This document shows, piece after piece, positions 1-63,952 of a DNA stretch of 64,000 nt. The translations under genes were made by a program, and so were the position numbers. The DNA is from Nitrosopumilus cobalaminigenes (GTDB taxonomy: Archaea; Thermoproteota; Nitrososphaeria; Nitrososphaerales; Nitrosopumilaceae), in assembly GCF_013407145.1 (NCBI RefSeq), contig NZ_CP026993.1, forward strand, positions 62,001-126,000, written 5' to 3'. Each line of letters starts with the position of its first letter. The stretch's first letter is position 1. The notes below the pieces were generated by a model. The model saw nothing but the letters and a program-made list of their open reading frames with translations. It was not told the origin of the DNA and made no database searches.

Positions 1-600
1 AGTAACTGACGCAATCAACACTGAAGCATCAAAGACTCAATCTCTATCTGATAACATCTCAGTAACTGACGCTATTGATACAACTTCACAACAAACTATC
101 ATTCTATCTGATAACATCTCAGTAACTGACGCAATCAACACTGAAGCATCCATCACACAATCTCTATCTGATACTATCTCAGTAACTGACGCTATTGTAA
201 ACAGTAAATTCTTCATCAAGACCTTATCTGATAACATCTCAGTAACTGACGCAATCAACACTGAAGCATCAAAGACTCAATCTCTATCTGATAACATCTC
301 AGTAACTGACGCTATTGATACAACTTCACAACAAACTATCATTCTATCTGATAACATCTCAGTAACTGACGCAATCAACACTGAAGCATCCATCACACAA
401 TCTCTATCTGATACTATCTCAGTAACTGACGCTATTGTAAACAGTAAATTCTTCATCAAGACCTTATCTGATAACATCTCAGTAACTGACGCAATCAACA
501 CTGAAGCATCAAAGACTCAATCTCTATCTGATAACATCTCAGTAACTGACGCTATTGATACAACTTCACAACAAACTATCATTCTATCTGATAACATCTC
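1..600 (+). repeat. Nested coding tandem repeat: 60-bp units in a 240-bp higher-order period
   Basis: Ten consecutive 60-bp units each begin agtaactgacgc and each encode 20 residues. Four unit types (cores NTEASKTQ, DTTSQQTI, NTEASITQ, VNSKFFIK) recur in the same order. The array is therefore 2.5 copies of a 240-bp block, and the visible copies look identical at DNA level (1-60 = 241-300 = 481-540; 61-120 = 301-360 = 541-600). Silent positions are as conserved as the rest, which suggests recent unequal recombination or active homogenisation. The array runs off the left edge. Confidence 0.95.
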
Positions 601-3373
601 AGTAACTGACTCTATTGCTTTTAGAGGTGAATTTAGTATTGAAGCAAGATCTGATGCAACTACATTACAAAGTGGTGCAGTATACCTTATTTCACCAAGT
701 CCATTTACTGGTACAGGAACATTATCTATTACAGATGGTGATGGCAATGACTCTGATGCAACTGCAGGAATTATAGCAGTTAGCAACGCTAGATTTGGCG
801 ATTATGATGTTGAAATGACTACTGTTCCTGCAACTTTCAATGTTACAGTTAATGCTACATCTGTTTCTATCTGGAATGCAGATGCAACACCATTAGTCAC
901 ATTCACCTTAATTTCACAAGCAGCAGTTGTGATCAATTTGGATCCATTAATTGTCACAACTGCTCCAATACTCAATGCAACACATTCAACAACACTATCC
1001 AATGCCAATGCTAAACTTGTCAACCAAACAGAATCTTCAATTACTACAACAGATGGTTTACCTGAAATAGTTGGTGTTGGAAAGAACAACACTTCAGGAA
1101 TTACTTCTGCAACAACTAAACAGTCTAACATCAAGTTTGTAAAGGATACAACTACGGGTTCTACCGGTAAATCCCTTCAACAATCATTTGGAATGCCAAA
1201 ATATAACATGGCAAAAGATAAGGATCTTACCGTTATGTTGCCAGCAATGGTCACAAAGGAATCTACAACAAGACAGGTGATTGCCACTCCGCTATATGAT
1301 AAAGTAACCCCTGGACAGAGAATGATTGTTCCTATCGAGTCTTCTCTTATTCCATCATTTGGAGGTGTATCAAAACTTGATATCACATCAAAATCAACTG
1401 CATCATCCACTGGAACATTTAGCAATGACTGGATTGTAATTGAAGTCGATGATGATTTAATCAACACTCCTACACTTGCAAGCAGTGGAATCACAAATGA
1501 ATTGGAATTATTCATCGATGTAAAATATCGCCATGAAGAGGACACGCTTGGTTTCAACTGGGGTGATGCAAACAACTATGAATCAGATCCAAAACTTACA
1601 GTACTTGTTCCAATCCCCACTGATTCTAATATTATCACACTTGAGAACGGCTGTGCAGATGTTCAAGTACACACACTAGTTGGTGAAACATGGTCTGCAG
1701 GAATTGATAGAGTACTATCCAATGTTCCATCTACTGACAATTCAGGATTCTGTGAGGTTGAAATAGAGTCAGATCATTATTCCAAGAAATCAGTTTCATC
1801 CAGAAGATCTGCATCATCTAGTTCTGGCTCCTCTGATGGTGGAAGTGGAAATAATGGTGGTGGCAGAACCGGTGTCAGTACTGGATATAGTGGTGGCTTT
1901 GGTGGCTTCCTTTCAACCCCACTTGCAATCAACGAGATTTACTATGACAAATGTGTCGACAACATGGCAAAGATAATAGTATCAAGTGATGCAGATGCCC
2001 CACCAACTGTTAGGGTATCTACTGCAAAGTCCGGAGTTGTAATTGCAACACTATCTGAGGTTCAACCATATGCAAAACTCAATGAATTCTCATCTTTGGA
2101 TAGATACGTCTATGAGATTCCAATATCATCAGATGAATCATTCTTGATGATTGTGGCAACTGAAGAGAAAGGATCTACAACAAACACAGTACAAGCATCT
2201 GTCAAACTATTATCCTGTGAAGGTACAACAGTAATTGTTCCACTTCCAGATGTACCATTACCAGAAACACCTGAGGATGCTCCAAGAATCTTTGACACTA
2301 AACTATCCATTGAAAATGGAACCACATATGATGTGAAAGAATCTGAATTCCTATACATCGATGGACAAGACATGTCAGTTTCAGCAATCATTGATAGTGT
2401 TGTACAACCACAACGTGTAGAGATTAGAACAATCTCCATGGGCCAGACAGTTGACCAGTATGTTGCAATCAAGATGGATGTAACACCATTGCTAGTATCT
2501 AACTCAACTTACGTCGTATCAGGAACAATTCCATCATATCTAATGGCAGAACCCGGAATGACATACTGGATGCACATTACAGATGAGGATGACTCACAAT
2601 CAGAATCAATACATTACAACATTGGTGTAAAACCAACTGAATCATCTACAGTACGTGTTGAAGTAGACATGCCAACAATCAAAGCATCAGGTACTATAGT
2701 CAAACCAGAATTCTACATATTCAATGACGATGTACCATCATACGGAATCGTATCACTATTAGTTGATGGTAAGGTTGTATCAAAACAATCACAATTGTTT
2801 GGAACTGGACAGACACATGTAATCTTCAACTGGAATGTCCCACAAGCAGATGGTTACATAGACTATGAGGTACAAGGAATGGTTGAATTGTACGATAACA
2901 CATTTGCAACTGCATCCTCTGTACTTGCAACACATCCAAAGACTATCACAGTTACAGGTGAACAAATGCCAGAACTACAAGTGATACAAAGAGACGGAAC
3001 AATACTTGCAGATCCTGCATTGGTATATGCATCAAATGCAGATGATACATTACGATTTACTGTAACTGATCCTGCAGGACAATGTATCATTGGTGCTGGA
3101 GAAGAATGTCTTGTAAATGATAGTACAAGGGACAATCGCGGTGGATTAGAAAGTGTACCATACGGTGATCAAATACTCAGAGTTAGATATTCAGGAGCTG
3201 ACAATTCACTAGAAAGATTCTCAATTACATCAATTGATCCAATTGTTGGACAATGGAATGTAACATTGGAATCCGATGACGGCTTTGTACAACAAGCACA
3301 TGCATCAGATGACACAACAGTCAAGATAAAGTACAGATATCACAGTGAGACAATGACTGTAAAATCTGGATAA
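2..3373 (+). CDS. Giant secreted repeat protein, C-terminal part (5' end outside window)
   Basis: The frame is open from the window edge to the TAA at 3371-3373, so about 1123 residues are visible and no start is seen. The first ~200 residues are tandem 20-residue units built around LSDNISVTDAI. A non-repetitive beta-rich region follows, then a Ser/Gly linker near residues 598-640, then further beta-rich, Ig-like-looking segments to the end. No C-terminal membrane anchor is evident. Composition (Thr, Ser, Asn, Val, Asp rich; few Lys/Arg) fits an exported adhesin or S-layer-associated protein, as in the very large repeat proteins known in marine thaumarchaea. The exact role is unknown. It lies directly before another secreted protein, which supports a surface function. 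Confidence 0.8.
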   Translation, partial: VTDAINTEASKTQSLSDNISVTDAIDTTSQQTIILSDNISVTDAINTEASITQSLSDTISVTDAIVNSKFFIKTLSDNISVTDAINTEASKTQSLSDNISVTDAIDTTSQQTIILSDNISVTDAINTEASITQSLSDTISVTDAIVNSKFFIKTLSDNISVTDAINTEASKTQSLSDNISVTDAIDTTSQQTIILSDNISVTDSIAFRGEFSIEARSDATTLQSGAVYLISPSPFTGTGTLSITDGDGNDSDATAGIIAVSNARFGDYDVEMTTVPATFNVTVNATSVSIWNADATPLVTFTLISQAAVVINLDPLIVTTAPILNATHSTTLSNANAKLVNQTESSITTTDGLPEIVGVGKNNTSGITSATTKQSNIKFVKDTTTGSTGKSLQQSFGMPKYNMAKDKDLTVMLPAMVTKESTTRQVIATPLYDKVTPGQRMIVPIESSLIPSFGGVSKLDITSKSTASSTGTFSNDWIVIEVDDDLINTPTLASSGITNELELFIDVKYRHEEDTLGFNWGDANNYESDPKLTVLVPIPTDSNIITLENGCADVQVHTLVGETWSAGIDRVLSNVPSTDNSGFCEVEIESDHYSKKSVSSRRSASSSSGSSDGGSGNNGGGRTGVSTGYSGGFGGFLSTPLAINEIYYDKCVDNMAKIIVSSDADAPPTVRVSTAKSGVVIATLSEVQPYAKLNEFSSLDRYVYEIPISSDESFLMIVATEEKGSTTNTVQASVKLLSCEGTTVIVPLPDVPLPETPEDAPRIFDTKLSIENGTTYDVKESEFLYIDGQDMSVSAIIDSVVQPQRVEIRTISMGQTVDQYVAIKMDVTPLLVSNSTYVVSGTIPSYLMAEPGMTYWMHITDEDDSQSESIHYNIGVKPTESSTVRVEVDMPTIKASGTIVKPEFYIFNDDVPSYGIVSLLVDGKVVSKQSQLFGTGQTHVIFNWNVPQADGYIDYEVQGMVELYDNTFATASSVLATHPKTITVTGEQMPELQVIQRDGTILADPALVYASNADDTLRFTVTDPAGQCIIGAGEECLVNDSTRDNRGGLESVPYGDQILRVRYSGADNSLERFSITSIDPIVGQWNVTLESDDGFVQQAHASDDTTVKIKYRYHSETMTVKSG

Positions 3374-7767: not shown

Positions 7768-9225
7768 TTATGGAAATGCAATAAATTCAGAAATTATAGA
7801 ATCTAATTCAGAAATTTTTATTCTGCTTTGTTCCATAGAATCTCTTTTTCTAATTGTTACAGTTTCATCTTCTAATGTTTGATGATCTACAGTTACTGCA
7901 AATGGTGCCCCAATCTCATCTAGTCTTCTATAACGTCTGCCAATAGCACCAGAATGATCTAAAAATGCATCACATTTTCTTTTAATTTGAAGATAAATCT
8001 CATCTGTTTTCTCTTTGAGACCGTCTTTTTTGACTAAAGATAATATCCCTACATGCATAGGAGCAAGATATGGCTTTAATGATAGAACAATTCTTTCATG
8101 TTCTTTATCATCTTGCAAACTATGTTCCAAAATTGTGTACAAACTTCTATCAATTCCCATTGATATCTCAAATACATGCGGTAATACCTTCTCGTCCTCA
8201 TCCATAATCTCAAATTTTTGTTTACTTTTTGTTGCATGACTGGTCAAATCATAATCAGATCTGTAATTACAGGCAACAAGTTCTAACCATCCAATTGTAG
8301 TTTCAACTTCAAAATCAAATGCAACTTCAGCATAGAATGCTTTTTCTTTATCACCAAGTTTTCTAAACCTGCTTTTTGAAATATCAATACCAGTTTTTTC
8401 ATAAAATTCAGTTAGTATTCCTAAATAATATGCAACAAACTTGTTTGGAACAACACCTGATTCTACTGCCTCTTTACATGTCATGGAGACCGGTTCAGAA
8501 TCTGTTTGAACTCTAATTGTCACATTTTCAATCTCTGAAAACTTTTCCATCTCAGTTAGTTTGTTTGGATTACAAAATACTTCGATTTCTGCCTGATAAA
8601 ATTCTCTTAAACGAAGAAGACTCTGTCTGGGAGCTATTTCATTTCTAAAACTCTTTCCTACTTGAGCAATTCCTAAAGGAAGTTTACCTCTCATAGTTTT
8701 GTATAGTCTAGGAAAATCTACAAAGATTGATTGACATGTTTCAGGTCGTAGATATGCCTCTTCTTCTTCTGGACCAATACCAACTTTAAACATCATATTG
8801 AAATTTTTAGTTTTATCAAAATCACCCTTACATTTTGGACATTTGATATTATTTTGTGCTATTGCATTATCAAATTCTTCCAAATCTGCACTTTCAGGAA
8901 TTTCTATCTGTGTAAGTTCTGCAATAGTTCTATCTGCTCTAAAAGTTGAATTACATTTTGTACATTTGATTATTGGATCTGCAAAATTTCCCAAGTGCCC
9001 TGAAGCTTCAAAAACTGATTTTGACATTATTTGTGAACCATCAATTTCAAGCATTCCATCTCTTCTGATTAGTTCTCTTCTCCATAACTCAAGAAATTTA
9101 TTTTTCAAACTGACTCCTGATGGACCATATTCCCAAAATCCAGCCTGAGCATCAGCATATACTTCACAACTAGGAAAGTAAAACCCACGCTCAAGTGCTA
9201 GTTTCATTACTGCTTCATAGTCCAT
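7768..9225 (-). CDS. glyS: Glycyl-tRNA synthetase (class II)
   Basis: This 485-aa protein charges tRNA-Gly in the cytoplasm. The N-terminus (LERGFYFPSCEVYADAQAGF) is the archaeal/eukaryotic alpha2-type signature. Cys pairs C88/C91 and C129/C132 form the usual zinc insertion. Motif 2 lies near residues 192-217 (FRNE...R.REFYQAE). The C-terminal anticodon-binding domain has the DEIGAPFAVTVD signature. Length is typical to slightly short. A TATA-like box sits 26 nt before the ATG, so it probably has its own promoter although nfo lies downstream in the same direction only 31 nt away. A tRNA-Gly gene lies elsewhere in the window but is not linked. Confidence 0.96.
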   Translation of the reverse strand: MDYEAVMKLALERGFYFPSCEVYADAQAGFWEYGPSGVSLKNKFLELWRRELIRRDGMLEIDGSQIMSKSVFEASGHLGNFADPIIKCTKCNSTFRADRTIAELTQIEIPESADLEEFDNAIAQNNIKCPKCKGDFDKTKNFNMMFKVGIGPEEEEAYLRPETCQSIFVDFPRLYKTMRGKLPLGIAQVGKSFRNEIAPRQSLLRLREFYQAEIEVFCNPNKLTEMEKFSEIENVTIRVQTDSEPVSMTCKEAVESGVVPNKFVAYYLGILTEFYEKTGIDISKSRFRKLGDKEKAFYAEVAFDFEVETTIGWLELVACNYRSDYDLTSHATKSKQKFEIMDEDEKVLPHVFEISMGIDRSLYTILEHSLQDDKEHERIVLSLKPYLAPMHVGILSLVKKDGLKEKTDEIYLQIKRKCDAFLDHSGAIGRRYRRLDEIGAPFAVTVDHQTLEDETVTIRKRDSMEQSRIKISELDSIISEFIAFP

Positions 9226-41570: not shown

Positions 41571-43460
41571 ATGGCTAAAATTATTGGTATTGATTTAGGA
41601 ACAAGTAACTCTGCAGCAGCGGTAGTAATGGGTGGAAAACCCACAATTATTCCAGCAGCAGAAGGGGCAACAGTTGGTGGCAAAGCATTTCCCTCAGTAG
41701 TAGCTTTTTCCAAAGATGGTGACCTTCTGGTAGGTGAGCCTGCACGTAGACAAGCAGTTACAAATCCAGATAGTACTATTGTTGCTGCTAAACGAAAAAT
41801 GGGTTCAGATCATACTTTTAAAATTCTAGATAAAGAATACAAACCTCAACAAATTTCGGCATTCATCCTTCAAAAAATTAAAAAAGATGCTGAAGCATTC
41901 GTTGGAGAACCAGTTCAAAAAGCTGTAATTACAGTTCCTGCGTATTTTGATGATAATCAGCGTCAAGCAACTAAAGATGCTGGAACAATTGCAGGACTTG
42001 ATGTTGTTAGAATAATCAATGAGCCAACAGCAGCATCTTTGGCATTTGGATTAGACAAAGCAAAAGAAGACATGAAAATTCTCGTCTTTGATTTTGGTGG
42101 TGGTACCTTAGATGTAACTATTATGGAAATGGGTGGGGGCGTATTTGAAGTTCTAAGTACTTCTGGTGATACTCAACTTGGTGGTACAGATATGGATAAA
42201 GTGTTAATTGATTATGTTGTTGATGAATTCAAGAAAAAAGAGGGTGTTGATCTTTCTCAAGATTCAACTGCAATGACTAGAATTAGAGAAGCTGCTGAAA
42301 AAGCAAAAATTGAATTATCTACTGTTATGGAAACCGATATCAATTTACCATTTATCTCTCATGATCCATCATCTGGCGCAAAAAATTTAGAATTAAGAAT
42401 TACAAGAGCAAAACTAGATGAACTAATTGGACCTATTGTAGAGCGATGTAAGCCTTCAGTACTCAAAGCCTTGGAAGATGCAAAACTCTCAAATTCCAAT
42501 ATTAATAAAATTGTCATGGTTGGTGGACCAACAAGAATTCCATTAGTCAAAAAATTTGTTAGTGATCTAATTGGTCAAGAATCTGAATCAGGTGTAGATC
42601 CTATGGAGGCTGTAGCAATGGGAGCGGCCATTCAGGCAGGAATTATTGCTGGAGATGTGAGTAGTGATATTGTTTTACTTGATGTTACTCCTCTAACATT
42701 GGGAATTGAAACTTTAGGTGGAGTTAGAGAACCATTAATTGAGAGAAATACTACAATCCCGACCTCAAAGGGTAAAGTTTTCACAACTGCAGCTGATAAT
42801 CAAACTGCAGTTACTATTCATGTTGTACAAGGTGAAAGACCTATGGCAACTGATAATGTTTCATTAGGAAGTTTCAATCTTACAGATTTACCACCTGCTC
42901 CAAGGGGCGTTCCTCAAATTGAAGTAAAATTTGACATTGATGCAAATGGAATTATTAATGTCACAGCAAAGGATCTTGGAACTCAAAAAGAAGCAAAAAT
43001 CACTATAGAATCTAACTCTAAATTATCTCCAGAGGAAATTGAAAAATTGAAAGAAGATGCAGAAAAATTCTCTGATGAAGATAAATTAAAGAAAGAAAAA
43101 ATTGATTTAAAGAACGAAGCAGAAAGTTACATCTACACTACAGAAAAATTAGTTAACCATGATCTTAAAGATAAAATTTCACAAGAACAAGGTATCAAAA
43201 TTACTGACGCCGTAAAAGAAGTTAAAGAAGTTTTAGATAAAGAAGCCGAAGAATTGAAACCTAAACTTGAAGCATTGCAAGCATTGGTAAATGAAGTTAC
43301 AACAGAACTTTACAAAAATGCTTCACCTCCACCCGGTGCAGATGGACAACAGGGTGCAGATGGACAACAGGGTGCAGATGGACAACAGGGTGCAGATGGA
43401 CAACAGGGTGCAGAAGAAACATCTGAATCATCTAAAACTGATGAAACAAAAACTAACTGA
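41571..43460 (+). CDS. dnaK: Hsp70 chaperone DnaK
   Basis: This 629-aa protein has the ATPase signatures [13 protein letters not shown] near residue 6, [13 protein letters not shown] near 166 and [12 protein letters not shown] near 316, and a substrate-binding domain with [12 protein letters not shown] and NTTIPTSK. The C-terminal tail carries four perfect GADGQQ repeats followed by an acidic, Ser/Thr-rich end. Archaeal dnaK genes are regarded as bacterial acquisitions. A purine-rich GGATGATG lies just before the ATG. Confidence 0.97.
43335..43406 (+). repeat. Four perfect 18-bp repeats in the dnaK tail
   Basis: The unit ggtgcagatggacaacag occurs four times head to tail, followed by a partial copy, and encodes (Gly-Ala-Asp-Gly-Gln-Gln)4. 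The perfect DNA identity suggests recent slippage and likely copy-number variation among strains. Confidence 0.95.
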
Positions 43461-58012: not shown

Positions 58013-58780
58013 CTACACCTTCTTGGAATCTTTTAATAAATATTCAAAGTATTGACGTGCAAATCCTGCCAATCCCGCATGATCTGCCCAAATTGCTACA
58101 ACTTCAGAAGAATTTACGCCTCCAATTTCAGGCCCTAGTAGAATTACTACGTATCTTTTATCAGAAATTATTCCACCTCCAAACAATCCTTTCTTGATTG
58201 TTACAGTGGCAACTCTTTTGATTGCCTTGATTGATTCTTTATCCATTTTGTCTGATGTAAGAATTGTAATATCTACTCCCTTATCATGAAGTGATCTTAG
58301 TTTTGGTAATGCTTGCTTAACAAGATCTACTCCAGCTTCGGGCAATGCAATCATTACTTCATTTCTACATGTCTCTACCATTTCTAAAATTTTAGCTGCA
58401 ATGTTTGCTGCACCAGATAATACCCATATGTCCGGCCTTTCACTTGTTCCACTTTTTTCATACAAAGGAACTAATTCATTTAAAATTACATTTTGATTCT
58501 GCGAAAAATCAGTTTCCATTTTTTGTTTTGTAGTTTCAAGACCTGTTGAAGGTGATTTTGCAAAATATTTTGTTGGCCTTGAATCATCTGAACCAATCCA
58601 CCCTTTTTCTTCTAGAGTTCCTAAAACTTCATAAATTTTTGAGTAAGGAACTCCTGATTTCTGACTGAGATCTGATGCTGTTAATTCTCCTGACTTTAAC
58701 AAAGCTGAAAACGTTCTAATTTCGTAACTGGTAAGACCAATTTTCTCTAATGCTTTTCTTGTTTTATCGGAAATGCTCAT
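58013..58780 (-). CDS. TrmB-family transcriptional regulator
   Basis: This 255-aa protein has an N-terminal TrmB winged helix (KIGLTSYEIRTFSALLKSGELTASDLSQKSGVPYSKIYEVLGTLEEKGWI region, residues ~13-62) and a coiled linker. Its C-terminal ligand/effector domain resembles the PLD-like domain of many thaumarchaeal TrmB proteins rather than the sugar-binding one. The ligand is unknown. It is the first gene of the TrmB-DtxR operon and is divergent from the Tes-like gene. Confidence 0.88.
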   Translation of the reverse strand: MSISDKTRKALEKIGLTSYEIRTFSALLKSGELTASDLSQKSGVPYSKIYEVLGTLEEKGWIGSDDSRPTKYFAKSPSTGLETTKQKMETDFSQNQNVILNELVPLYEKSGTSERPDIWVLSGAANIAAKILEMVETCRNEVMIALPEAGVDLVKQALPKLRSLHDKGVDITILTSDKMDKESIKAIKRVATVTIKKGLFGGGIISDKRYVVILLGPEIGGVNSSEVVAIWADHAGLAGFARQYFEYLLKDSKKV

Positions 58781-58898: not shown

Positions 58899-60563
58899 AT
58901 GGCATTAATTCAGATATCCAATCAATCAACTAAAAATTTAGGTAAAAAATCTACAATTAGATTCACTCAAAGTATCTGTCCAGACTGTAACATGATTTTG
59001 GATGCTGAGGTCTTTGAGCGAGATAATCAAGTGTTTATGTCAAAAGTTTGTCCAACTCACGGTGAATGTGAGGAATTATACTTTGGTTCTTATGAAATGT
59101 ACAAGAAATTCAGTACATACTGGATGGATGGTAAAGGTGCTCATTCTCCAAATGTAATGATTGACAAATGTTCATGTCCAAACAACTGTGGATTGTGCTC
59201 AAATCACTTGTCTCATAGTGGATTAGCAAACATGATTGTAACTAACAGATGTGATTTAACATGCTGGTATTGTTTCTTTTATGTAAAGAAAGGCCTTGAA
59301 GGTGCTTACATGTATGAACCAGATCATACACAAGTTAGAGGAATGATGAAAACTCTCAGAGCTGAGAGACCAATTCCAGGAAACTCTATGCAAATTACTG
59401 GTGGTGAACCAATGCTTAGAGAAGATATTGCTGATGTTATCAAAATTATGAAAGAAGAAGGTGTTGACCATATTCAAATGAATACAAATGGTATCCGACA
59501 CGCAATGGATCCAGAAGCTGCAAGAGAAGTAAGACTTGCTGGATGTAACAACTTGTATCTTTCCTTTGACGGTGTAACTGCAAGAACAAATCCAAAGAAT
59601 CACTGGGAAATCCCATATGCACTTGACAGTTGCAGAAAAACAGGTACTACTGTAGTATTTGTCCCAACAGTAATCAAATCAATTAATGACCACGAACTAG
59701 GTGGAATTATCAGATATGCTCAAAAGAATATGGATGTAGTTCATGCTGTAAACTTCCAACCAGTATCATTAACTGGAAGAATGGGTAAATCTGAACGTGA
59801 AAAATATAGAATCACAGTTCCTGATTGTGTTCAAAGAATTGAAGAACAAACTAATGGTGAAGTAACTGTTGATGATTGGTTCCCAGTCCCAAGTTGTATG
59901 CCACTAACTAATGTAATTGAAGCATTCTCAAGCAAACCAAAATACGAATTATCCATTCACTTTGCTTGTGGTGCAGGGACATACATTTTTGAAGATGCAG
60001 ACACAAAGAAGTTTGTTCCATTAACAAAATTCTGTGACATTCAAGGAATGTTAGAATTATTTGAAGATAAAGCAGAAGAAATTCGTTCTGGTAAAAACAA
60101 GTACTTTACAATGCTTGAAGTTGTTAGAAAACTCAAAGGCTTTGTTGATACAAAGAAACAACCAGCAGGGTTAGATTTAGCAAAGATGTTTGGTAATATT
60201 CTAATGAAGAGATCATTTGATTCAGTTGGTTCATGGCACGTCAAAGGATTATTCCTTGGTATGATGCACTTTCAAGACAAGTACAATGAAGACCTTGAAA
60301 GATTACAAAGATGTGATATTCACTATGTAACTCCAGACCTTAGAATAGTTCCATTCTGTGCATTTAATGTAATTCCAGAATGGTATAGAGATAGAATTCA
60401 AAAGAAATACTCTATCACTGTAGAGGAATGGGAAGAAAGAGAAGGTGTTAAACTTGAAGATGGTCTTTACAGAGGTCTTATGAGACGTGGAGCAGGTGAT
60501 GAACTTGCTGCTGGCTGTGCAAAGAGTCAGATGTTCCATGATGCTGCTCAAGCAACAATGTAA
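58899..60563 (+). CDS. tes: Radical SAM protein, tetraether synthase (Tes)-like
   Basis: This 554-aa protein has the radical-SAM cluster motif CDLTCWYC (C118, C122, C125) and ITGGEP near residue 166. Extra Cys sets flank it: C27/C30/C51 at the N-terminus (CPDC...CPTHG) and C91/C93/C97/C100, suited to additional metal or Fe-S sites. The C-terminal part has CDIHYVTPDLRIVPFCAFN. This architecture matches the MJ0619-type family shown to join archaeol tails into GDGT membrane-spanning lipids. Length is typical. The gene stands alone, divergent from two regulator genes. Confidence 0.88.
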   Translation: MALIQISNQSTKNLGKKSTIRFTQSICPDCNMILDAEVFERDNQVFMSKVCPTHGECEELYFGSYEMYKKFSTYWMDGKGAHSPNVMIDKCSCPNNCGLCSNHLSHSGLANMIVTNRCDLTCWYCFFYVKKGLEGAYMYEPDHTQVRGMMKTLRAERPIPGNSMQITGGEPMLREDIADVIKIMKEEGVDHIQMNTNGIRHAMDPEAAREVRLAGCNNLYLSFDGVTARTNPKNHWEIPYALDSCRKTGTTVVFVPTVIKSINDHELGGIIRYAQKNMDVVHAVNFQPVSLTGRMGKSEREKYRITVPDCVQRIEEQTNGEVTVDDWFPVPSCMPLTNVIEAFSSKPKYELSIHFACGAGTYIFEDADTKKFVPLTKFCDIQGMLELFEDKAEEIRSGKNKYFTMLEVVRKLKGFVDTKKQPAGLDLAKMFGNILMKRSFDSVGSWHVKGLFLGMMHFQDKYNEDLERLQRCDIHYVTPDLRIVPFCAFNVIPEWYRDRIQKKYSITVEEWEEREGVKLEDGLYRGLMRRGAGDELAAGCAKSQMFHDAAQATM

Positions 60564-60584
60564 TAGAATTTTTTAATCCAAGAC

Positions 60585-60592
60585 CTTAAAAA
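60585..60592 (+). promoter_or_regulatory. TATA-like box of the GT4 gene
   Basis: CTTAAAAA is centred about 25 nt before the GTG start at 60614. Confidence 0.4.
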
Positions 60593-60613
60593 GTCTGCAA
60601 CTAATTTTATTTT

Positions 60614-61564
60614 GTGAAATTTCTTTTTATTTCGCCTAGATATTCTGGTGGAATTGGTGGACATGCTGCAATGCTTGCACACCAATTAGAAAATTTTGGG
60701 CATAGTGTTACAAAAATGGAAACACCTCACATTCCAATTAAAAATCTAAAAAATCCAAGTTTTGCAATTTTAGGTGCATTAAAAGGAATAATGAATAGAC
60801 AAAATTATGATATAGTTCATGCATTCAATATACCATCGGGATTTGCAATGCATTATTCAAAGGGACAGAAAAAAATTCTATCTGCCCATGGAGTTTACAG
60901 TGACCAAGTAAAAGTATTGCATTCATCAACAACTAGTAAAATTGCAACTAGTGCAGAATCAAGAGTTTTCAAATGGGCTGATAAATTAACTACTGATTCA
61001 CAAATAACTAAGAAAGAATACAAAAAAAAATTCAACCTTGATTTAGAATATCTGCCATCTCCAATAGATACTGAAATGTTTAAAAAAATTCCAGAAGTTA
61101 AAAAAATTACAAATCAAGTTGCATATGTAGGTCGAGATAGTTTTGAAAAAGGAATTGATATACTAAAAAGTATAGAATCAAAAATAAATGGAAATGTGGT
61201 ATATTGTGTAGACAAACCTTGGGATGAAACTATGAAAATTCTTAAATCTTCAAGACTACTAGTAGTTCCTTCTAGAATGGAAAGTCTTCCAACTGTTATA
61301 AAAGAAGCATTTTATCTAAAAATACCCGTCATTGCATCTTCTGTAGGTGGAATTCCAGAATTAGTTACACATAATGAGACTGGAATATTAACAGAATCTG
61401 AAAATCCTCAATTATTACTAAAAAATATTAATGAATTATTGATTGATGAATCACTTCAACAAAAATTATCATCTAATGCATATGATTTTGTAATCAAACA
61501 TTTTACTTGGAAAAAAATCCTTCCAAAATATCTTAATTTTTATGAAAACTTATTAAAAAATTGA
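60614..61564 (+). CDS. GT4-family glycosyltransferase (GT-B fold)
   Basis: This 316-aa protein starts at GTG (MKFLFISPRYSGGIGGHAAMLA). The Gly-rich loop SGGIGG near residue 11 is typical of GT4. The C-terminal domain has VPSRMESLPTVIKEAFYLKIPVIASSVGGIPELVTHNETGIL (residues ~218-260), with the EX7E-like Glu pair. It probably adds a sugar to a lipid carrier or surface glycan. It heads the sugar locus that continues to the window end. Confidence 0.93.
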   Translation: MKFLFISPRYSGGIGGHAAMLAHQLENFGHSVTKMETPHIPIKNLKNPSFAILGALKGIMNRQNYDIVHAFNIPSGFAMHYSKGQKKILSAHGVYSDQVKVLHSSTTSKIATSAESRVFKWADKLTTDSQITKKEYKKKFNLDLEYLPSPIDTEMFKKIPEVKKITNQVAYVGRDSFEKGIDILKSIESKINGNVVYCVDKPWDETMKILKSSRLLVVPSRMESLPTVIKEAFYLKIPVIASSVGGIPELVTHNETGILTESENPQLLLKNINELLIDESLQQKLSSNAYDFVIKHFTWKKILPKYLNFYENLLKN

Positions 61565-61568
61565 ACAT

Positions 61569-62468
61569 TTAATTAAAAAATATTTTTAATCCTTCTTCTA
61601 AACCTATTTTTGCTTTCCAATTTAATTTCTTATTTGTATTTGTAAGATCTGCTAAACTGTTTTTCACATCTCCTTCTAATGCATCGATATGAATTATTTT
61701 TAGATCTTGATTTGAAATTGTAATTAAAATTTCTGCCAAATGATTAATTGAAGTTGGAACATTTGTTCCTATATTATAAAATCCAAAATTCACATCTGAA
61801 TCCATTGCAAGTATATTTGCATATGCAACATCTTCTACATGAACAAAATCTCTAATTTGTTCACCATCTCCAAAAATTTTCAGTGATTCATTATTTTTTA
61901 TATTATGTAGGAATTTTGTAATTACTCCTGCATATGAAATAGTTTGGCCTTTTCCATAAATATTGAAATATCTTAATCCAATAACTTTGACATCCAGTTC
62001 TGCATATTTTTCAGCTAATAATTCTGATTGGTATTTTGTATCTCCATAAGGATTAATTGGTTTTCTTGGAGAATCTTCTTTGATTGGAATTGTTTCAGTG
62101 TCTCCATAAACACTTGAACTACTTGCAAAAACAACTTTGATTTCAAATTCTTTGGCGATTTTTAGAATATTTTCAGTTCCCACTAGATTTACATCAAAAT
62201 ATTCATCTCTTTTAGTGAATGACTCTTGAACTACTGTTAGAGCTGCTTCATGAAAAATACCGTCAACATTTTTACAAATTTCTCTTAATTTATCAAAATT
62301 GCGAATATCAATCTCATGAAATTCAATCTTATCTAGAATATCCTCAAGATTGCTCTTTCTCCCAGAATGTAAGTTATCAATCACTTTAACAGAATGATTA
62401 TTTTTAATTAATTGACGTACGATATTATTCCCAATAAAACCTGCCCCTCCAGTTACTACATATTCCAT
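61569..62468 (-). CDS. UDP-glucose 4-epimerase-like NAD-dependent epimerase
   Basis: This ~299-aa extended SDR has Rossmann motif TGGAGFIGNNIV near residue 6, VIDNLHSGRKSNL, the HEAALTVVQES block, catalytic Ser-Ser/Tyr-Lys (SSSSVYGD and NPYGDTKYQSE, YxxxK) and RYFNIYGKGQ. The ATG at 62468 is supported by a TATA-like box 27 nt upstream and by the family N-terminus; the longer ORF to 62552 adds an unrelated hydrophobic stretch. The substrate may be UDP-Glc, UDP-GlcNAc or another NDP sugar. It converges on the GT4 gene. Confidence 0.9.
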   Translation of the reverse strand: MEYVVTGGAGFIGNNIVRQLIKNNHSVKVIDNLHSGRKSNLEDILDKIEFHEIDIRNFDKLREICKNVDGIFHEAALTVVQESFTKRDEYFDVNLVGTENILKIAKEFEIKVVFASSSSVYGDTETIPIKEDSPRKPINPYGDTKYQSELLAEKYAELDVKVIGLRYFNIYGKGQTISYAGVITKFLHNIKNNESLKIFGDGEQIRDFVHVEDVAYANILAMDSDVNFGFYNIGTNVPTSINHLAEILITISNQDLKIIHIDALEGDVKNSLADLTNTNKKLNWKAKIGLEEGLKIFFN

Positions 62469-62490
62469 TCTTGATGTGTGAAATATGACA

Positions 62491-62498
62491 TCTTTAAG
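62491..62498 (-). promoter_or_regulatory. TATA-like box of the epimerase gene
   Basis: On the minus strand CTTAAAGA is centred about 27 nt before the ATG at 62468. Confidence 0.4.
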
Positions 62499-62575
62499 TT
62501 TTGAGCAAAATTGAATCAAAAACCTAAATAAAGAATAACAAAATCTTAACATAAATTAATAAAAATGTGAATGAT

Positions 62576-63952
62576 ATGAACAAAAAAATTTTTGATAGAA
62601 ATATTGATGATGTTAAAAAATCAATTAAATCAGCTGAAATTTCAGTCTGTGTAATTGGGATTGGTAGAATTGGTCTACCTACTGCACTATCTTTTGCAAA
62701 ATCAGGATTATTGACTACGGGATTGGATATTAACACTAGTTTAGTTGAAAAAATAAATTCTGGGGATTTTCCTTTAAAGGACGAACCAAAATATGATATA
62801 ATTTTTGATGAGGTTTTAAAAAATAAAACATTTCATGCAACAACCCAAGCTAATGAAATTATTCCAAAATCTGATGTTATATTATTATCATTACCTACAC
62901 CTATGAATGAAAACAACATTCCTGATTATTCTGCTTTGAAATCTGTTGCAAATCAACTTCACAGTCTAATGACGCCTGGTACATTAGTTGTAGTTGAAAG
63001 TACTATTGAACCAGGTTTTTTGGAAAATGAATTAATTCCTATAATTGATGGAAATGATGAACGATTAGAATCTGGAATTAATTATGGAATAGGAGTTTGT
63101 CCTGAAACTGCAAATCCTGGTGAAATAATCACAGATTTTGAAAAATTACCTAGACTTGTAGGTGGAATAAATAAAAAATCAGCTGATATTATTACTGAAA
63201 TATATCATCATGTATTCCCTGTACAACTCATTCCAATGCCTAATTGTAAGACTGCAAATGCTGTTAAACTTACAACAAATGTTTTTCGTGATATCAATAT
63301 TGCATTCATAAATGAACTATCTATTTTATTTGAAAAACTTGGGATAGATACTAACACTGTTTTGGAAGCAGCAAAAACAAAATATAATTTCCAAGTCCAT
63401 TATCCTGGCGCTGGTGTGGGAGGACCATGTCTACCCATAAACTCGTACCAATTTTTAAATTCTGGAAAACAATTTGACGATGATCTATTGACAATAATCA
63501 AAGCTAGTAGAAAACGAAATGAAAGTATGCCCCATTATGTTATAGACATGATAAATGAAACTTTATCTCAAAATGGAAAATTATTAAAAAATTGTTCATT
63601 ATTGATAATGGGGGTATCATACAAACCCAATGTGAAAGATATACAATTGACACCCGCAGAAATTATAATAAATAAATTAAAAGATCAAGGAGCAATACTC
63701 AAAATCTATGATCCATATTTTAAATCCTCAACTGTGTTTGGAATAGAAACTGAAAACAATTTGGAAGATGCATTACATAAAGTAGATGCAGTGATTTTAC
63801 TTACAGCTCATAAAGAATTTTTAAAAATTGAACCCTCTTTTTTAAAATCAACTATGAAAAGTCCTATAGTAATTGATACTAGAGGTGTTTTTGATGTTTC
63901 TGCTGCAAAAGAAGCTGGTCTAATTATTAGGAGCCTTGGACGAAAATTCTAA
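62576..63952 (+). CDS. NDP-sugar dehydrogenase (UDP-ManNAc/UDP-GlcNAc type)
   Basis: This ~458-aa enzyme oxidises C6 of a UDP sugar to the uronic acid. NAD motif is VIGIGRIGLPTAL near residue 29, STIEPGFLEN follows, and NAVKLTTNVFRDINIAFINEL holds the catalytic Lys region. GVGGPCLPINSYQFL carries the catalytic Cys. All three domains are present, including the C-terminal one (IMGVSYKPNVKDIQLTPAE). The ATG at 62576 is used; a GTG at 62567 would add three residues. It is divergent from the epimerase. Confidence 0.93.
   Translation: MNKKIFDRNIDDVKKSIKSAEISVCVIGIGRIGLPTALSFAKSGLLTTGLDINTSLVEKINSGDFPLKDEPKYDIIFDEVLKNKTFHATTQANEIIPKSDVILLSLPTPMNENNIPDYSALKSVANQLHSLMTPGTLVVVESTIEPGFLENELIPIIDGNDERLESGINYGIGVCPETANPGEIITDFEKLPRLVGGINKKSADIITEIYHHVFPVQLIPMPNCKTANAVKLTTNVFRDINIAFINELSILFEKLGIDTNTVLEAAKTKYNFQVHYPGAGVGGPCLPINSYQFLNSGKQFDDDLLTIIKASRKRNESMPHYVIDMINETLSQNGKLLKNCSLLIMGVSYKPNVKDIQLTPAEIIINKLKDQGAILKIYDPYFKSSTVFGIETENNLEDALHKVDAVILLTAHKEFLKIEPSFLKSTMKSPIVIDTRGVFDVSAAKEAGLIIRSLGRKF

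Follow-up and report, generated by a model that had tools for sequence, protein, structure and literature searches.

Few cells in the ocean are as numerous as the marine ammonia-oxidizing archaea, whose attachment to particles is poorly known. The 64,000-nucleotide stretch of DNA analyzed here (the window) comes from a complete Nitrosopumilus genome (G000, the source genome; the other G codes denote genomes of relatives), where it lies within one 1,563,356-bp contig (G000:C1:62001-126000), and it opens inside a perfect tandem repeat. To what kind of protein does this repeat belong, and how have its copies come to be so alike? In the literature searched, no paper on this array of the Nitrosopumilus giant gene was found.

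Extent and layering of the array

Analysis with TRF revealed a perfect 240-bp tandem repeat in the first 610 nucleotides of the window, with 2.5 copies, 100% matches and no indels (score 1220), which is far above chance expectation. Each 240-bp block consists of four 60-bp units that encode 20 residues (for example, VTDAINTEASITQSLSDNIS). The identical short-range repeat that a sequence-only reading had noticed here is therefore real and, as that reading also proposed, the array extends past the left edge, which could be read because the window sits inside one longer contig. The regular array occupies genome positions 59001–62600 and comprises 60 units of exactly 60 bp each; it starts 3000 bp to the left of the window, where 50 of the units lie, and the window holds its last sixth. 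Older, degenerate units of 18–20 residues precede it from approximately position 58287. A profile of the array found no second site in its own genome, where the array is unique. In composition, the array contains 35% Ser and Thr, 12% acidic and 2% basic residues, with aromatic residues almost absent and no Cys, Gly, or Pro, and it carries 45 N-x-S/T sequons in 61 units.

Assigned to types by their variable region, the units follow the order ABBCDDBCDDBCDDBCDDBCBCBCBBBCDEECBFBCBBBCDEECBFBCBGHIBGHIBGHI. Within this string, a BCDD block occurs four times (240 bp, with a longest exact match of 544 bp), a 12-unit block occurs twice (720-bp spacing, 664 bp of exact identity), and a BGHI block, which is the 240-bp repeat seen at the window start, occurs three times. 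The 240 bp that had been taken as the true period thus describes the terminal BGHI blocks and not the whole array, in which the BCDD blocks and the 720-bp duplication are also present. Similarly, the identity claimed at silent sites extends to copies of one type, which share the same DNA, exceptions being rare (one type uses both AAT and AAC), and not to different types, between which silent differences were found at Ala4 (GCA/GCT), Ile5 (ATC/ATT), and Leu15 (CTA/CTC/CTT/TTA). Six core codons are constant in all 60 units, namely Val1 (GTA), Thr2 (ACT), Asp3 (GAC), Asp17 (GAT), Ile19 (ATC), and Ser20 (TCA). Because same-type copies are nearly all identical and the core codons constant while the codons of other columns differ by type, the array has two layers, an older divergence of types and a recent duplication of blocks. 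The head-to-tail blocks and the near-complete DNA identity of same-type copies bear out the recent amplification or homogenization proposed earlier. Of the two processes then offered, amplification is supported; gene conversion, dispersed and acting alone, accounts less well for blocks that lie head to tail than does tandem duplication or unequal exchange.

Structure prediction was applied to the array and to the region that follows it. For eight array units, AF2 returned a β-solenoid with a pLDDT of 83.6 in the best model and 38.8–59.5 in the other four; this solenoid was not trusted, because perfect repeats are known to lead AF2 to β-solenoids that are unrealistic despite high confidence (PMC11795689). 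Foldseek found no significant match to the array model (best E 0.07), and a borderline Pfam match of ATP-synt_ab_C over the array (29.0 bits against a cut-off of 27) was set aside as fortuitous, given the repetitive sequence. The AF2 model of the C-terminal module (pLDDT 39) was usable no further than 'beta-rich', and a search of the C-terminal region against solved structures returned no relatives and one chance match (E 0.88).

The giant gene and its surroundings

The array lies within an open frame of 3083 aa (genome 56122–65373; 3017 aa from the first ATG), which contains no stop over 9.2 kb and ends in a 923-aa non-repetitive C-terminal region with orthologues throughout the genus (Table 1). 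Nearly full-length matches to this region were found in G054, G055, G094, G006, G001, G036, G053, G047, and G032, and the matches in other genomes begin at approximately residue 386. At E ≤ 1e-12, the 527-aa C-terminal module is present in 59 of the 300 genomes of the order. Its terminal sub-domain also matches a second site in the source genome (G000:C1:1014881-1015135; 40% identity, E 5e-8). That site lies at the C-terminus of a separate, conserved signal-peptide protein of ~1100 aa (L065:2839-6132) found in most genomes of the genus; a common surface-sorting or docking domain is possible. The giant protein itself ends in HSETMTVKSG, in which no sorting motif was seen.

Table 1. Positions of the features of the giant-gene locus within the window
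Feature	Window position	Strand	Description
Last ten 60-bp units of the array	1..610	+	TRF and unit list; final unit boundary 600/601
Giant gene, C-terminal 1123 codons	1..3373	+	Array end and 923-aa non-repetitive C-terminal region
Junction and first half of C-terminal region	602..1789	+	Conserved mainly in closer orthologues
Family-wide C-terminal module, ~527 aa	1790..3370	+	After Ser/Gly-rich linker; predicted beta-rich; eight genera, one family
Terminal sub-domain	3041..3283	+	Pattern CIIG..CLV.STR...VRYSG.D..LE.FSI; recurs in separate ~1100-aa protein
MopE-type gene, 1415 aa	3488..7735	+	Signal peptide, eight MopE-type metal-binding motifs
Glycyl-tRNA synthetase (GlyRS)	7768..9225	-	Right-hand flanking marker of locus

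In the source genome, the signal peptide is followed by two hydrophobic segments and by a lectin-like domain of the LamG/Concanavalin A type (PF13385, E 2e-19). After these come a small minisatellite of 36-bp units, a stretch rich in Lys, a segment resembling MG2 (a weak match, below the cut-off), a region before the array with a sequence resembling a β-propeller, the array, and the C-terminal module. Intact orthologues in G094 (5212 aa) and G001 (3338 aa) likewise contain the signal peptide, the two hydrophobic segments (approximately residues 191–242 in G094), a LamG-like region, the array, and the C-terminal module, with the signal peptide and the two-helix hydrophobic hairpin in frame with the array. 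The signal peptide of these intact members agrees with the earlier suggestion of an exported protein. The 36-bp minisatellite (genome 55604–55783, L009:7604-7783, left of the window) consists of five copies of TVEIAPVDTNST at 99%, and relatives have minisatellites of their own at a like position. In G026, this is a 21-bp unit (YNQTPQP) in more than 20 copies, with at least two frames open, and in G006 the units read GTNSTGIIPVN.

The giant gene is located between a glycosyltransferase gene and, past the MopE-type gene, GlyRS. The MopE-type gene, whose product also has a coiled-coil-like stretch, is not a constant neighbor, being absent between the giant gene and GlyRS in G006 and G026. Thrombospondin-3-like proteins of Nitrosopumilus have been reported to rise under H2O2 (PMC6593220). 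The glycosyltransferase gene and GlyRS directly adjoin in three genomes that lack the giant gene, G005, G092, and G035, the first of which we take to be Nitrosopumilus maritimus SCM1. A simple insertion at a clean empty site was rejected, as the relative orientation of the two marker genes differs in these genomes, and the pattern is therefore one of presence or absence at a rearranged locus. By these comparisons, the giant gene is accessory and patchy across the Nitrosopumilaceae. Elsewhere in the window (43335–43414), a perfect 18-bp repeat (4.4 copies) encodes a Gly/Gln-rich stretch at the end of another long gene (~41574–43452).

Divergence of the array between species and homogenization within them

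Within the genus, the C-terminal module of the orthologues is ~50–80% identical, and the array is found in the same position. The number of units, 60 in the source genome, is 117 in G094 (LSETLTPSDVLTTTTAASVT and LTETLTPSDSVATSETVT), 116 in two frames in G006 (LTESLSLVDDINRTFNIS), 55 in the 3311-aa orthologue of G026 (LSDSITVSDTIANTASQTIQ and others), 16 in G001 (LSDSLALTDTIATTSAISAT), and at least 19 in G054, where the array ends at the contig edge. Unit lengths in the relatives are mostly 54, 60, or 63 bp, and 57 bp also occurs. Unit sequence, unit length, and copy number are each private to the species; the units are wholly different between orthologues, and a faint L-S/T-D/E-x-hydrophobic-x-x-x-D pattern is common to all of them. 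Nested blocks were also identified in the unit-type strings of G006, G026, and G054. The variability in length anticipated by the sequence-only reading was thus found between species (16 to 117 units, with one genome per species compared). These comparisons suggest a rapid change of the stalk in both length and sequence, with the remainder of the protein still recognizable. G026 also encodes a second array protein (G026:C1:5673-13136, L045; 2488 aa, 33 units in ABC-type triplet blocks), a paralogue that is ~29–33% identical in the C-terminal region.

The nearest relative, Nitrosopumilus sp. ECS24A2 (G054), allowed homologous blocks to be compared. Its array contains a four-unit block three times, unchanged but for the last codons of the third copy. 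When aligned with the four-unit block of the source genome, the variable parts show an identity of 0.59 in phase and of 0.33–0.44 in the three other phases, and the blocks are therefore considered homologous, since the order of types matches better in phase than out of phase. These homologous 240-bp blocks are identical within the source genome and near-identical within G054, and share 67.5% of their nucleotides between the two. Homologous copies thus resemble each other more closely inside one species than across the two, and homogenization has continued after the split. In the coding region that flanks the array, identity is 77.0% for nucleotides, 77.7% for protein, and 56% at fourfold sites (dS ~0.98, dN 0.14, dN/dS ~0.15, with synonymous sites near saturation); this flank evolved under purifying selection while the array was homogenized. 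These comparisons give good support to concerted evolution of the array, with tandem duplication in frame and unequal exchange as its route. At the molecular level, the agent would be unequal crossing-over or slippage, to which the head-to-tail blocks in register point.

A probable giant surface protein and its alternatives

The natural reading of the domain order and of the array composition would be a membrane-anchored stalk or adhesin. We consider it likely that the array serves as the spacer, or stalk, in a giant Nitrosopumilus surface protein that is anchored in the membrane and is probably an adhesin. The array has been homogenized separately in each species, as blocks of one to twelve units were repeatedly duplicated in tandem and lost without a change of frame. 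Such a stalk would hold the folded domains out from the S-layer, and its length may be free to drift, as gain or loss of whole units preserves the frame; the giant protein may serve attachment to particles or cells. Indirect support comes from S-layer-bearing ammonia oxidizers, in whose biofilms large adhesion proteins of ~1000–3000 aa are induced (PMC12448741).

The N-terminal part of the gene raises the question of whether the source strain carries a decaying pseudogene, with the array as a relic that still expands through neutral slippage. Three frame breaks are found there, at approximately genome positions 55240, 55940, and 56136 (L009:7237-8140, genome 55237–56140), and they part the signal peptide and hydrophobic hairpin upstream (genome 53103–55259) from the array; the array-bearing 3017-aa frame is therefore without both in the assembly. 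When 78 kb were scanned by codon usage, no frame break turned up outside the giant gene; two further direct switches of frame are short overlaps between genes, of the ordinary kind. The orthologues in G006, G026, and G032 contain breaks or stops at other sites. The first break in the source genome sits in a partial duplication of ~85 bp. However, the second and third compensate each other around the Lys-rich repeat, so that these two could be consensus errors in repetitive DNA. The long frame without a stop, the low dN/dS of the C-terminal flank against G054, and the orthologues of G094 and G001, intact over their whole length, also speak against decay, and we regard a pseudogene as unlikely.

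An assembly product, in which collapsed or mis-stacked reads would account for both the number of copies and their exact identity, appears more doubtful still. The array evidently defeats assemblers, since the assemblies of many relatives (e.g. G054, G056, G057, G152, G173, G303, G304, and G137) stop inside it, ~1 kb upstream of the C-terminal module. Even the single 1,690,905-bp contig of G009 starts inside the array gene (G009:C1:1-2963, L052), and the N-terminal part did not turn up in its final 11 kb (L067); this contig may have been cut at the array. Yet the contig of the source genome crosses the array with several block types in irregular order and with both flanks, the independent assembly of G054 contains the same kind of three-fold block in its own sequence, and a collapse would imply a longer real array rather than an absent one. 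Very improbable, in our view, is a contingency device, whereby switching or variation of the surface protein through the array would allow escape from viruses or grazers. Rapid turnover of a species-specific and probably exposed sequence, together with the surface character of the family, is what such a device would display, but neutral homogenization alone predicts turnover between species. Moreover, the units (all of 60 bp in the source genome) are multiples of three in length, so that a gain or loss of units keeps the reading frame and alters length, not the on/off state; the phase variation once envisaged for this array was accordingly rejected. For the phage avoidance suggested alongside it, nothing was found in favor, and a search of the core repeat against viral contigs returned no match.

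For the preferred reading, a stalk homogenized in each species, one extension would be that the species-private units act as a recognition surface, with identical units on neighboring cells binding each other. We hold this to be a long shot; if true, concerted evolution would keep re-tuning a label of self and non-self, and aggregates would stay clonal. The array shows concerted evolution clearly, and does so within coding DNA of an archaeon, where homologous higher-order blocks have been homogenized separately in two species. It also accounts for the breaking of draft genomes of the family at the giant gene, which leaves the size of the protein invisible in most assemblies, and it is a possible length marker for strain typing. 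The object is of an ordinary kind, a tandem-repeat surface stalk, found here in a little-studied archaeal family and with unusually clean evidence of concerted evolution.

Among known systems, the large adhesion proteins of AOA (N. maritimus Nmar_0455-0459 and N. viennensis NVIE_000940-001020) are likewise very large and patchy among AOA, and are thought to reside in the S-layer (PMC12448741). In N. maritimus, the 2799-aa protein that lies close to the region induced in biofilms, assigned to Nmar_0455-0459 from its position and size, was however rejected as an orthologue, as its homology is limited to a weak 87-aa stretch (25% identity, E 2e-6, to the G026 orthologue), and a search with the C-terminal region found the giant array gene absent in N. 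maritimus. The staphylococcal Sdr/ClfA adhesins offer a parallel in design, in that a ligand-type domain is held out by a Ser-rich, low-complexity, in-frame minisatellite, and the copy number of their Ser-Asp repeats alters by rearrangement without a frame shift (PMC3324548). Homology is neither expected nor seen, and the Nitrosopumilus array protein differs in having 20-aa units rather than SD dipeptides, in lacking the LPXTG cell-wall anchor, in belonging to an archaeal cell with an S-layer, and in its nested 240/720-bp blocks. A giant adhesin dominated by near-identical extender repeats is also seen in the ice-binding MpAFP of Marinomonas primoryensis, which has ~120 identical 104-aa repeats (PMC4083281); these bacterial repeats are folded, Ca-binding Ig-like domains, whereas the Nitrosopumilus units are 20 aa long.
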